Positions 26,306 to 30,532 of a DNA stretch of 34,163 nucleotides are shown here, one piece after another. Position numbers and translations under genes: made by a program. Position 1 is the stretch's first letter, and each line of letters starts with the position of its first letter. The notes beneath the pieces were generated by a model. That model saw only the letters and a list, made by a program, of their open reading frames with translations, made no database searches and had not been told where the DNA came from. The stretch comes from Pseudomonadota bacterium (GTDB taxonomy: Bacteria; Desulfobacterota; Binatia; UBA1149), in NCBI GenBank assembly GCA_014382245.1, contig JACNKC010000035.1, positions 1-34,163 of the forward strand. Direction: 5' to 3'.

Positions 26306-27430
26306 TCATATACGCATCGGCATAACGACGTAGCAGTAGTCCTTGTCGATTCCCCTCACGACACCGGGGCTGAACTGATCCTTGAGAGAAATCTCGACGT
26401 TCTCGTTGTCCGGAAGCACGTTGAGAACGTCGAGAAGGTAGCGGCTGTTAAAGCCAATCTCGATCTCATCGCCCCCGTACTTGACCTTAACATCCTCGCT
26501 GGCTTCGCCCAGGTCCGGGTTATTGGCCGACACCTCCAGAGAATCCTCCTGGACATTCAACTTGATGCCGCGGGCCCGCTCACTCGAAAGCAGGGACACC
26601 CTTCGTACGGTCTGCAGCAGGCTGTCCCGCTCGGCTACCATCAGGTGTGGAACCTTTTTTGGTACGACCTGGTTGTAGTCGGGAAAATTACCCTCGACCA
26701 GGCGCATGCTCATTATCGCGCTGCCCGCCTCGAGGAAGGCCTCGTTGCCGGTGATCGATAGCTTGACGCCTGCTTCCGGGTCTAAGTCGGCAAGTATCCT
26801 GGCGGTTTCATGGAGGCCCTTGCGGGGCAGGATCACCCCGGTAGGAATTTCACCGCTGCCGCTCTTTTTTTCTATCATCGCCAGGCGATGACCGTCGGTA
26901 GCCACCATCCTGAGCAAGCCGCCACCGGAGGCCGACTCCAGGTAAATCCCGGCCAGGTTGGACCTCGTGTCGTCGGTGGACACGGCAAAGATGGTTTTCT
27001 GTATCATGTCCAGAAGATCGTTGGCCTTGAACGAAAGAACCGTCGTGTCGCTACCGTTTCCCGGTGAATCGGTGACCCCGGGATGGTCGGAAGGGTCAAT
27101 TCCCATCAGCTTGAAGTCTGATCGACCATAAGCCACTTCGACCCAGCTGTTCTTGAGAACCTTCAGCTTGAGATCGCTACCCTCTGGAGCCTCTCTCACG
27201 ATTTCGAACAACTTACGGGCCGATACTGCCACTACGCCGGCTTTCTTTACCCGGGCCGGGCAGGACTGGCGCAGCCCGATTTCAAGATCGCTGGCCAGGA
27301 CGATTACAGAGTCTGAATCTGTTTGGAGCACCACGTTAGTGAGCACCGCCATCGAGTGTCTTCGGTCGACCACTCCCTGGCAGCGGCTGAGTACGGTAAG
27401 GAAGGATTCTCTTTCTAAGGTTATCTCCAT
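26306..27430 (-). CDS. dnaN: DNA polymerase III beta subunit (sliding clamp)
   Basis: Ring-shaped processivity clamp of the replicase. The 374 residues begin MEITLERESFLTVLSRCQGV and VDRRHSMAVLTNVVLQ and end with DQFSPGVVRGIDKDYCYVVMPMRI, the canonical clamp end MP(M/V)R. Three repeated clamp domains fit the length (366-375). The ATG has GAGG five bases upstream. It is separated from dnaA by 208 AT-rich bases carrying a likely promoter. Confidence 0.97.
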   Translation of the reverse strand: MEITLERESFLTVLSRCQGVVDRRHSMAVLTNVVLQTDSDSVIVLASDLEIGLRQSCPARVKKAGVVAVSARKLFEIVREAPEGSDLKLKVLKNSWVEVAYGRSDFKLMGIDPSDHPGVTDSPGNGSDTTVLSFKANDLLDMIQKTIFAVSTDDTRSNLAGIYLESASGGGLLRMVATDGHRLAMIEKKSGSGEIPTGVILPRKGLHETARILADLDPEAGVKLSITGNEAFLEAGSAIMSMRLVEGNFPDYNQVVPKKVPHLMVAERDSLLQTVRRVSLLSSERARGIKLNVQEDSLEVSANNPDLGEASEDVKVKYGGDEIEIGFNSRYLLDVLNVLPDNENVEISLKDQFSPGVVRGIDKDYCYVVMPMRI

Positions 27431-27638
27431 GCGGACCTCTTCAGTAATAAAGGAATAGTCTTATCCTGTTACTGTTGTTAGATGCCAACTTTCGAGGGAT
27501 AAGCTCGTAAGTTGTTGTATTGATGTAATATTATATGCACAGCAAGCCTGTGCGCTTTCTGCTGACAATGTGAGCGCAACTTCTTTTTCGGTGTCGGGGC
27601 TGCGATAGGCAAACTCTCCGCACAGCCGAACGCATAAC
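27431..27638. other. dnaA-dnaN intergenic region: candidate DNA-unwinding element and dnaN promoter
   Basis: The 208-base gap is conspicuously AT-rich for this GC-rich window. Bases 27508-27537 are about 80 percent A+T (24 of 30). On the minus strand a perfect TATAAT (complement of 27530-27535) lies about 100 bases before dnaN, and a palindrome lies directly upstream of it. A perfect DnaA box sits at the dnaA end of the gap. The stretch could act as dnaN promoter, origin unwinding element, or both. Confidence 0.5.
27537..27553. promoter_or_regulatory. Palindrome overlapping the dnaN promoter spacer (candidate operator)
   Basis: GCACAG-CAAGC-CTGTGC is a perfect 6-bp inverted repeat with a 5-bp centre. 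It ends two bases upstream (minus-strand sense) of a perfect TATAAT. Its position between -10 and -35 is typical of a repressor site, but the binding protein is unknown. Confidence 0.35.
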
Positions 27639-27647
27639 TTATCCACA
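27639..27647 (+). promoter_or_regulatory. DnaA box downstream of dnaA
   Basis: Perfect TTATCCACA. The first three bases are also the complement of the dnaA stop codon TAA. It lies about 100 bases from the AT-rich stretch in the dnaA-dnaN gap. Confidence 0.85.
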
Positions 27648-29012
27648 GCCTATCATCCTCGTCACAGTGTCGATCAGATCGCGAAAACGGGGGTCGTCGC
27701 TGCGCTTATTTTCGACCACCCGGCAGGCGTGGACCACGGTAGAGTGGTCGCGGCCACCGAGGAACTCACCGATGCTGGGAAACGAAGCGCCGGCGTGGTT
27801 GCGCATGATGTACATGGCTACCTGCCTTGCTTCGGCCACTTTCTTGGTGCGCCGTCGCGCCGCCAGTTCTCCGGGCCTGAGACCGAAGTGGCGGCTGACC
27901 CCGGTGGCTATGTCCTCGAGGCCGATTTCCTTATGGTCATTGCCGCCGCTGGTGGCGAGTAGTTCCCTGGCCAGGTCCAGTGTCAGTTCACTGCGGTTCA
28001 ACGAAGCGTAAGCACTCAATCGGGTGAGTGCGCCCTCCAGATCACGGACGTTGGAGTCAATCTGAGAGGCCACGTAGCTCATCACCTCGTCGGGCACGCT
28101 GATGTGCTCGGCCTGGGCTTTGCGCCGCAGAATGGCCACGCGGGTTTCCGCGTCGGGTGACTGGATGTCGGCCACCAGGCCCCAGCCGAAGCGGTTGCAG
28201 AGCCGTTCTTCAACACCCTGTATCTCGTTGGGAAACTTGTCCGAGGTCAGCACGATCTGCTTGCCGCTGTCATAGAGCGCGTTGAAGACGTGAAAGAATT
28301 CTTCCTGGGTACGCTCGCGGCCGGCGAGAAACTGTACGTCGTCGACCACGAGTACGTCCATGCGGCGAACGCGGTTTTTGAATTCCTGCACGCGGTTGCG
28401 GGATATGGCGTCGATGAGCTGGTTGGTGAAGCTGTCGGTGGACAGGAACAACACCCGCGCGTTGGGGTCAGAGTCGACGATGGCGTTGCCGATGGCGTTT
28501 GCCAGGTGAGTTTTACCCAGTCCTACGCCACCAAAAATAAAGAAGGGGTTGTAAAGCGCGCCGGGCTGCCCGGCCACCGCGCGGGCGGCGGCATGTGCAA
28601 ACTGGTTGCTGGGGCCGATCACGAAGTTGCCGAAATCGTAGCGGGCGAGGAAGCCCCCGGGTCGTCGCGCAGGAGGTTTTCTGACTTTCCGGCTGGCCTT
28701 GGCCGTCTCGTCGGCAAACAGGTTTCCCTGGGCCGGCTGCTCGTCGCAGACAAGGCGCAGGGTGTTCCGTTGTCCACTGGCCTCGGTCCAGGCTGTGGAT
28801 ATGTCGTCGAGAAAGTTCTCCTCTATCCAGGACGCACAGAGCCGGTTGGGGACAGTGATTTCCAGCGCCCCGTCGGGTGCCGGACGCGTTTTCATAGGCT
28901 CAATCCAGGATTCGAAGTCCTCATCGGACACAACCGCCCTGAGCGAGCTAACGACTTGATTCCAAAGGGTTTTAAAGTTGGACGACGGGGCGTTTTCCAC
29001 AACAGTTACCAA
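27639..29012 (-). CDS. dnaA: Chromosomal replication initiator protein DnaA
   Basis: AAA+ initiator that binds DnaA boxes and opens the origin. The protein has 457 residues. Domain I begins with LWNQVVSSLRAVVSDEDFESWI, and domain II is a short basic linker. Domain III has Walker A FGGVGLGKTHLANAIG (about 160-175), Walker B VLVVDDVQFLAGRERTQEEFFH and arginine-finger segments. Domain IV ends with the box-recognition motif GGRDHSTVVHACR. No ATG is available at the conserved N terminus. TTG at 29012 or GTG at 29000 must be used, and neither has a good Shine-Dalgarno site. DnaA boxes lie directly upstream. Confidence 0.97.
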   Translation of the reverse strand: MVTVVENAPSSNFKTLWNQVVSSLRAVVSDEDFESWIEPMKTRPAPDGALEITVPNRLCASWIEENFLDDISTAWTEASGQRNTLRLVCDEQPAQGNLFADETAKASRKVRKPPARRPGGFLARYDFGNFVIGPSNQFAHAAARAVAGQPGALYNPFFIFGGVGLGKTHLANAIGNAIVDSDPNARVLFLSTDSFTNQLIDAISRNRVQEFKNRVRRMDVLVVDDVQFLAGRERTQEEFFHVFNALYDSGKQIVLTSDKFPNEIQGVEERLCNRFGWGLVADIQSPDAETRVAILRRKAQAEHISVPDEVMSYVASQIDSNVRDLEGALTRLSAYASLNRSELTLDLARELLATSGGNDHKEIGLEDIATGVSRHFGLRPGELAARRRTKKVAEARQVAMYIMRNHAGASFPSIGEFLGGRDHSTVVHACRVVENKRSDDPRFRDLIDTVTRMIGCG

Positions 29013-29023
29013 ACTTAGACACA

Positions 29024-29049
29024 GGGTTATCCACAGCTGTTGATAACCC
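29024..29049. promoter_or_regulatory. 26-bp palindrome made of two facing DnaA boxes
   Basis: TTATCCACA (29027-29035, plus) and TTATCAACA (complement of 29038-29046) face each other with two bases between. The flanking GGG and CCC extend the symmetry, so 12 of 13 positions pair. This would place two DnaA molecules head to head, about 15-35 bases upstream of the dnaA start. Confidence 0.88.
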
Positions 29050-29072
29050 GCATCGCGGGGCCGCGGTGGAAC

Positions 29073-29081
29073 TTATCCACA
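29073..29081 (+). promoter_or_regulatory. DnaA box
   Basis: Perfect TTATCCACA, 27 bases beyond the paired boxes and in the same orientation as the first of them. Confidence 0.88.
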
Positions 29082-29260
29082 GGGGCACCGTTGCTTGCCA
29101 ATAGGTCCAAACGCGTGGAGTTTCAAGAGCGGTACGCAACGCGCGAGACAAGTATGCGAGAAACAAGCAGAGTTGAATGCAGGTTCGGTCGGTGCCATCG
29201 GTTGGTGTGAGCGGCACTCGCCTCGGGGCAGGGCCGCAAGCCTGGGAGGACGAGCTGAAA

Positions 29261-30532
29261 ATGGAAGCAAAGCCGGATTCGGCGGAACTGTTTGAACGTG
29301 CGTGCCGTTGCATGCCCGGCGGCGTCAACTCGCCGGTGAGGGCCTGGTCGGCGGTGGGTGGTGTTCCACGCATCGTGGAGTCTGCGGCGGGTGTTGAGCT
29401 CTGCGATGTTGATGGCTGCAGGTACCTGGATTTTACGGCCTCCTGGGGACCGCTGATCGCTGGCCACGCCCACCCGCGGGTGGTCGAGTCGGTGTCAGCA
29501 GCTCTGGAAAAGGGCAGCAGTTTCGGCGCCACAACGCGTGGCGAAATAGAGCTTGCCGAGCGTTTGTGCGGCCGTTTTTCCTCGCTGGAGAAGCTGCGCC
29601 TGGTCAGTTCCGGCACAGAGGCGACCATGAGCGCGCTGCGCCTGGCGCGGGCGGCCACCGGCCGCGACTCGGTAGTCAAGTTTGCCGGTTGTTATCACGG
29701 CCACAGCGACGGGCTACTGGTGCGAGCGGGTTCGGGCGCCACCACCCTGGGCATTCCAGACAGCCCGGGTGTGCCGGCGGCCGTGGGTGGGCTTACGCGG
29801 GTGGCACGCTACAACGACCTCGAATCGGTGCGCGCCGCCTGCGACGGCGAGGTTGCCGCAGTCATCGTGGAGCCGGTGGCCGGCAACATGGGAGTGGTGC
29901 CGCCGCGCGAAGGCTTTCTGGAGGGCCTGCGCAAGATAACCGAATCAACCGGGGCGCTGTTGATCTTTGACGAGGTGATAACCGGCTTGCGCCTGTCGCC
30001 CGGTGGATGGCAACAGTTGTCGGGGGTGACGCCCGACCTGACCTGCCTCGGCAAGGTGATAGGCGGTGGCCTGCCGGTGGGTGCCTACGGCGGGCGCGCT
30101 GACCTCATGGACCAGGGGGCACCCGGCGGCCCGGTCTACCAGGGGGGCACACTGTCGGGCAATCCCTTGGCCGCGGCCGCCGGCCTGGCCACCCTCGACC
30201 TGCTCGAGGAAGACGGCAGCTACGAGAGACTCGAGGAGCTTGGCAAGCGACTGGGCAACGGCTTGGCGCAGGCGCTGGCGGGCAACGGTTGCGTGCAGCG
30301 AGTCGGCTCGATGCTGACGCTGTTTTTCGGCGTCGCCGGCGTGGACGATTACGACGACGCACTAAGCCTGGACGCCGATGCATACGGGCGCTTCTTCCAC
30401 GCGATGCTGGACCGCGGGGTGTGGCTGCCGCCGTCGGGCTACGAGGCCTGGTTCGTGTCGATGGCTCACAGCGATGAGCATGTCGACCGTGCGGTCGAAG
30501 CAGCCGGCGGCGCGATGGCGGAGATCCTGTGA
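29261..30532 (+). CDS. hemL: Glutamate-1-semialdehyde 2,1-aminomutase
   Basis: PLP enzyme converting glutamate-1-semialdehyde to 5-aminolevulinate in the C5 route to haem. The ATG at 29261 has GGAGG about ten bases upstream and gives 423 residues, normal for HemL. With this start the PLP lysine in CLGKVIGGGLPVGAYGG is K265, the same number as in characterised enzymes. A frame open from 29177 would add 28 unconserved residues. Other motifs are FERACRCMPGGVNSPVRA, VSSGTEATMSALRLARA and FDEVITGLR. Its stop overlaps the next gene (GTGA), so it probably heads an operon with the FO genes. Confidence 0.96.
   Translation: MEAKPDSAELFERACRCMPGGVNSPVRAWSAVGGVPRIVESAAGVELCDVDGCRYLDFTASWGPLIAGHAHPRVVESVSAALEKGSSFGATTRGEIELAERLCGRFSSLEKLRLVSSGTEATMSALRLARAATGRDSVVKFAGCYHGHSDGLLVRAGSGATTLGIPDSPGVPAAVGGLTRVARYNDLESVRAACDGEVAAVIVEPVAGNMGVVPPREGFLEGLRKITESTGALLIFDEVITGLRLSPGGWQQLSGVTPDLTCLGKVIGGGLPVGAYGGRADLMDQGAPGGPVYQGGTLSGNPLAAAAGLATLDLLEEDGSYERLEELGKRLGNGLAQALAGNGCVQRVGSMLTLFFGVAGVDDYDDALSLDADAYGRFFHAMLDRGVWLPPSGYEAWFVSMAHSDEHVDRAVEAAGGAMAEIL

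Follow-up and report, generated by a model that had tools for sequence, protein, structure and literature searches.

A facing pair of DnaA boxes upstream of dnaA in a Binatia bacterium, and its probable place in a bipartite replication origin

A 26-bp palindrome located just upstream of dnaA is built of two facing DnaA boxes separated by 2 bp, and a tandem third box lies 3 bp from the pair. This triad is probably the dnaA-side half of a bipartite replication origin that flanks dnaA, as well as an operator of dnaA, the strands opening on the other side of the gene, in the dnaA-dnaN spacer. The stretch of DNA analysed (34,163 bases, referred to as the window) comes from a genome placed in Candidatus Binatota, class Binatia, order UBA1149 (the order name was deduced from relatives). 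No paper combining 'Binatota' and 'DnaA' was found in the literature searched.

The dnaA locus and its DnaA boxes

The gene was identified as dnaA by its Pfam DnaA domains and by a TIGR00362 score above the cut-off. A domain search showed dnaN and gyrB to come after it, and an 827-aa open frame that follows these two occupies the place expected of gyrA. When the leaders of relatives from the order were read by eye, a GTG followed by a codon for E or D was common to them; GTG at 29000 is therefore a likelier start than TTG at 29012, and dnaA probably begins there. The dyad would consequently lie 24-49 nt upstream of the start, and not 15-35 bases upstream as the first-pass annotation had it. 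On the right, dnaA diverges from an Aminotran_3 gene that, from its family and context, we take to be hemL. The start of this gene at 29261 was picked by eye on account of a Shine-Dalgarno-like GGAGGA, the longest frame beginning at 29177. A divergent hemL flanks dnaA in 50 of 51 Binatia loci (the exception, G037, has no hemL match), and a co-oriented dnaN does so in 50 of 51 (in the exception, G012, the contig ends before dnaN). The strand switch at which the palindrome had been placed is this hemL/dnaA divergence, and is conserved accordingly.

Table 1. Features of the dnaA locus in the window (coordinates are window positions).
Feature	Position	Strand	Remarks
Trinucleotide array TAA CAA CAG TAA CAG	27466..27480	-	strand-reversed relative to canonical DnaA-trios
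Degenerate DnaA box TTATCCCTC	27494..27502	-	3 mismatches; in dnaA-dnaN spacer
dnaA-dnaN spacer	27431..27638	.	proposed unwinding half of origin
DnaA box TTATCCACA	27639..27647	+	also encodes the end of dnaA (Cys-Gly-stop)
dnaA	27639..29000	-	probable start GTG 29000; stop codon included
DnaA box TTTTCCACA	28993..29001	+	overlaps the dnaA start codon
Weak tandem third box TTAGACACA	29015..29023	+	2 mismatches; 3 bp from the near box of the dyad
26-bp dyad (facing DnaA-box pair, 2-bp gap)	29024..29049	.	core of the conserved triad
DnaA box TTATCCACA	29027..29035	+	first box of the dyad
DnaA box TTATCAACA	29038..29046	-	second box of the dyad; 1 mismatch
Perfect DnaA box TTATCCACA	29073..29081	+	26 nt past the second dyad box
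hemL (Aminotran_3)	29261..30532	+	divergent neighbour of dnaA, right side

The sequence of the dyad on the + strand is GGGTTATCCACAGCTGTTGATAACCC, and 12 of its 13 pairs match. Both this near-perfect palindrome and the additional perfect box at 29073 agree with the first-pass annotation; two boxes, TTAGACACA and TTTTCCACA, were absent from it. The dyad was found by a script, a repeat finder having missed it, probably since its one mismatch breaks the exact seed. It is the sole 26-bp dyad in the window with at least 12 matching pairs, and only one of 40 shuffles contained one. The motif TTWTNCACA occurs four times in the window (0.78 expected; 4 of 100 shuffles reached four). DnaA boxes are present on both sides of dnaA, at 28993-29081 upstream and at 27639-27647 and 27494-27502 downstream. 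Among the 13 loci of the order, the box at 29073 was found in the window's genus only (G000, G001 and G002). The downstream box TGTGGATAA at 27639-27647 coincides with the last codons and the stop of dnaA; inspection by eye detected a box coding for this Cys-Gly-stop in 7 of 12 order loci (G000, G001, G002, G003, G005, G007 and G011). A consensus scan of positions 28900-29260 identified no sigma-70-like promoter, which counts against the proposed operator and origin half.

Conservation of the box spacing

A match was obtained in 56 of 58 genomes (G014 and G053 had none). G018, G036, G043, G048 and G051 were left out of the dnaA-locus analysis, which covered 51 Binatia loci, box pairs being counted in the last 220 nt of each. 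Facing boxes separated by exactly 2 bp were present in 39 of the 51 loci when up to four mismatches in total were allowed, and in 35 when the limit was three. Each of the other facing gaps from 0 to 20 bp was seen in 0-6 loci, except for a gap of 14 bp (29 and 23 loci at the same two limits), which corresponds to the first box paired with the tandem third box. This third box was positioned exactly 3 bp from the second in 31 of the 39 pair-bearing loci, and in none of them at offsets 0-2 or 4-7. The conservation of the 2-bp gap across Binatia dnaA loci argues that the palindrome is not random and, together with the fixed position of the third box, makes this geometry the norm of the lineage. 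The first-pass annotation had considered the 2-bp gap unusual and had proposed conservation of the palindrome in relatives as a check; the gap proved conserved, and hence ordinary in this class.

The pair was found (up to four mismatches) in all 13 loci of order UBA1149. Outside the order it was present in 22 of 23 loci from families mostly with one DnaA, and in 4 of 15 from families mostly with two, counts that are uncorrected for relatedness. The two-DnaA families whose dnaA leaders mostly lacked it were f9, f11, f13 and f15. Altogether, 12 of the 51 Binatia loci had no facing pair at this limit, which counts against the bipartite reading. A search of 247 phylum genomes for perfect facing pairs with gaps of 0-12 bp gave 17 genomes, and the gaps were only of 2 bp (10 genomes) or 5 bp (seven genomes). 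All ten gap-2 pairs were upstream of dnaA, three of them within Binatia (G013, G025 and G032) and seven, just upstream of the gene, outside the class. For the gap-5 pairs (L216-L222, from G205, G081, G152, G294, G175, G075 and G147), no dnaA match was detected within the 4-5 kb fetched around any of the seven; five had a further box (up to one mismatch) 2-14 bp beyond the pair. An outgroup of 73 named loci (L046-L118; the titles of most point to Bacteroidota, and some are Binatia or close kin) contained gap-2 facing pairs, at up to two mismatches in total, in three cases (L046, L053 and L057), none of them titled Bacteroidota.

The dnaA-dnaN side of the locus

The genome assembly consists of 129 contigs, and GC skew was computed locally on the 34-kb window. 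The cumulative minimum was found at 27252, at the dnaA-dnaN junction; because of this position, dnaA has the skew of the right arm while being transcribed like the genes on the left. In the genomes of the order the minimum was on the dnaN side in eight of the eight examined, no more than 0.7 kb from the 3' end of dnaA in five (G000, G002, G003, G005 and G006) and 5-10 kb from it in G004, G009 and G010. Among four class relatives, G052 and G056 had it about 6 kb away, also on the dnaN side. Of the other two, G021 had its local minimum upstream of dnaA, at a distance of 0.16 kb, and in G027 no local minimum stood out clearly; both results count against the bipartite reading. In G027, which is a single contig, 20 sampled stretches gave a cumulative curve that is noisy and carries little weight; it was lowest at the 2.40-Mb sample, and dnaA lies just after it, at 2.437 Mb.

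Within the 34 kb, the least stable 100-bp segment begins at position 27437, inside the dnaA-dnaN spacer. Positions 29024-29081 are of average stability, 22% of 100-bp segments and 40% of 40-bp segments being at least as weak. Since both the skew minimum and the weakest stretch fall at dnaA-dnaN, a bipartite origin, its unwinding site 1.5 kb from the palindrome, is the better reading. The first-pass annotation had suggested that the palindrome could serve origin binding and autoregulation, and had regarded a skew minimum located elsewhere as evidence to the contrary. Such a displacement, of 1.5 kb, was partly borne out: the reading as DnaA sites fits their conservation and place, but the opening of the strands is better placed at the other end of the gene.

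The spacer before dnaN was scanned in 50 loci (12 from the order and 38 from other Binatia; G012, whose contig stops short of dnaN, was excluded), a canonical module being defined as a box with four or more canonical DnaA-trios in a row no further than 18 nt from it. Such modules were present in 12 of the 38 other Binatia loci, compared with 0.00 expected from resampling; that of G027 reads TTATCCACA TATCCACA GGCC CTACTACTACTATTA. None of the 12 order loci, the window included, reached four trios of the canonical arrangement (DnaA-box, spacer and 3'-GAT-5' trios). The window's own spacer contains a degenerate box only and no canonical trio, which counts against the bipartite reading. Runs of at least four reversed units, whose central base on the box strand is A, were detected in 7 of the 12 order loci (0.07 expected) and in 5 of the 38 loci of other families (0.20 expected). 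These arrays start 13-14 nt after the box match in six of the seven order loci, the distance in G003 being 9 nt; the array of the window begins 13 nt after the degenerate box. Since these are short runs in AT-rich DNA, the claim of a reversed array is drawn from conservation among loci and not from the window by itself. On this basis, the array of order UBA1149 sits on the strand opposite to that used in other Binatia, and its strand appears to have changed. The motifs TTGT or TTATT were present on the T-rich strand of 10 of the 12 order spacers. In the spacers of family f7 (L022, L021 and L016), an AT-rich stretch is bordered on one side by a canonical trio run and on the opposite side by a reversed run, AAGTAGTAGTAA, the two arranged as if facing each other.

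The numbering of DnaA residues was taken from PDB chain 8btg, which we assume to be B. subtilis DnaA and whose numbering fits. The trio-contacting residues of the B. subtilis protein, as listed in a passage of PMC10721633, are N187, I190, I193, R202 and E228; the window's DnaA has N, I, I, K and E at these positions. The position of N187 is occupied by N in 12 of 13 DnaA proteins of the order (T in one) and in 23 of 23 from single-DnaA families, and that of R202 by K in 13 of 13 and 20 of 23, respectively. At the position of I193 all 13 DnaA proteins of the order have I, as against L in 20 of 23 of the single-DnaA families elsewhere. Judged from these alignments, the strand of the array differs while most of the predicted trio contacts are unchanged. 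DnaA may read the array from its opposite side, may use it much as E. coli DnaA uses its own, or may not read it at all.

A second full-length DnaA is encoded outside the window (G000:C108:105-1457, L032); it is 35% identical to the window's and passes the TIGR00362 cut-off. Each of the 13 genomes of the order has a second DnaA match, either complete or fragmented. In the 11 proteins examined the box-contact motif RDHST is replaced by RNH[TS]S, and the position of N187 holds R (10 proteins) or Q (one); the Walker motifs are intact in the five that were aligned. No DnaA box with up to one mismatch was found near this gene in the window's genus. In G002 it adjoins ilvB/nuoG-like genes.

Readings of the locus and comparison with known systems

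The window has the features of a bipartite oriC of the B. subtilis type, namely boxes on both sides of dnaA, a weak AT-rich half and a skew minimum at the locus; the conserved boxes in the dnaA leader are those expected of a dnaA operator. DnaA would bind the leader at a triad of fixed geometry (box, 2 bp, facing box, 3 bp, tandem box), which would form the upstream (oriC1/dnaA-operator) half of a Bacillus-like bipartite chromosome origin. DnaA bound there would most likely repress the transcription of dnaA, and may touch DnaA on the dnaA-dnaN half via looping, the strands most likely opening in the AT-rich spacer.

That the palindrome is instead the core of a single-part origin, the strands opening there, as a literal reading of the first-pass annotation would have it, seems improbable. 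Perfect boxes do cluster at 28993-29081, at a conserved strand switch, and the skew minimum of the class relative G021 lies just upstream of dnaA; however, the palindrome region is neither AT-rich nor weak, the minimum of the window is at 27252, and it is towards dnaN that relatives carry their box and trio modules. It is conceivable, though rather unlikely, that the dnaA leader of Binatota carries a fixed dyad-plus-one DnaA switch whose head-to-head pair is purely a repression or titration site set apart from unwinding, because two DnaA molecules seated head-to-head could not extend the usual head-to-tail filament, and that the strand of the UBA1149 array was swapped, relative to sister families, without changing most of the base-capture residues. 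If so, UBA1149 would offer a naturally occurring deviant, or reversed, DnaA-trio.

The dyad might also work as such, beyond offering two protein sites, as an RNA hairpin in the dnaA leader (controlling translation or the transcript) or as a DNA cruciform. The leader of the window folds into a hairpin at the dyad, and the bases flanking it are complementary in 24 of 39 loci at -1/+1 (P 0.003) and in 23 of 39 at -2/+2 (P 0.0006), compared with shuffling among loci, a test that ignores relatedness. Yet no excess of complementarity was seen within the boxes or the gap, the fold was only mildly better than that of shuffled sequences (z -1.8; 11 of 200 as good), and a hairpin does not explain a tandem third box at a fixed spacing. 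Little probability is therefore left to this explanation, although the weak excess of complementary flanks may leave room for some role of the dyad itself. Control of the divergent hemL, or of both genes, with little connection to the origin, is very unlikely. Although 50 of 51 Binatia loci keep the divergent hemL, in pair-bearing loci the triad is close to dnaA, and in the window some 210 bp separate it from the likelier hemL start; the stretches searched in the seven gap-2 genomes outside Binatia yielded no hemL match. As for chance, DnaA boxes are to be expected near dnaA and their number in the window is by itself only mildly unusual; nevertheless, the exact spacing in 39 of 51 loci, set against near-zero counts at almost all other spacings, makes a fortuitous palindrome hardly credible.

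The proposed bipartite origin with an operator in the dnaA leader has its direct precedent in that of B. subtilis, in which, according to a passage of PMC4207641, incA/incB and the dnaA promoter lie upstream of dnaA, and incC and the DUE downstream. As in the parts of PMC4207641 and PMC6669920 that describe that origin, boxes occur here on both sides of dnaA, the upstream half contains the leader or promoter, and the downstream half has the weak DNA and, in related Binatia families, DnaA-trios. The upstream half differs in being a compact triad, whereas an excerpt of PMC8235120 reports 13 boxes for incAB. A further difference is that here the neighbour of dnaA is hemL. B. subtilis, we believe, also has a facing box pair before dnaA, with a gap of 3 bp.

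The oriC1/oriC2 arrangement of Clostridioides difficile is likewise bipartite around dnaA. Its oriC2 has a trio CACCTACTACTATTACTACTATGA before dnaN, as given in a section of PMC7561715, and in this it is like G027, G021 and G034; the window's order differs from it in having no canonical run of at least four trios (0 of 12 loci). Modules made of a box and trios are known from C. difficile oriC2 and B. subtilis incC, as passages of PMC7561715, PMC6669920 and PMC8287927 indicate. In the E. coli oriC, the DUE by box R1 (box, 14 nt and TAATAAGAG on the box strand) resembles the arrays of order UBA1149. Extracts of PMC5742627 describe E. coli DnaA as binding the T-rich strand via TTGT and TTATT, motifs needed there; the E. 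coli oriC differs in being away from dnaA, as mentioned in a part of PMC8287927. Several bacteria are documented to autoregulate dnaA, repressing it through DnaA boxes located in its promoter or leader (a passage of PMC8203912); like the autoregulation sites of E. coli, B. subtilis and others, the candidate boxes of the triad lie in the dnaA leader.

Origins of this kind are already known; what makes the Binatota case a variant is its fixed spacing together with the strand-swapped array. The analysis assigns an uncultured phylum's origin to the bipartite class, with a likely DnaA operator in which spacing is conserved to the exact base throughout a class, and points to a lineage in which the strand of a DnaA-trio-like array appears to have changed. 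Deviant trios were anticipated, in a passage of PMC8287927, by Pelliciari et al., and the sequences described here would permit a direct test of them.
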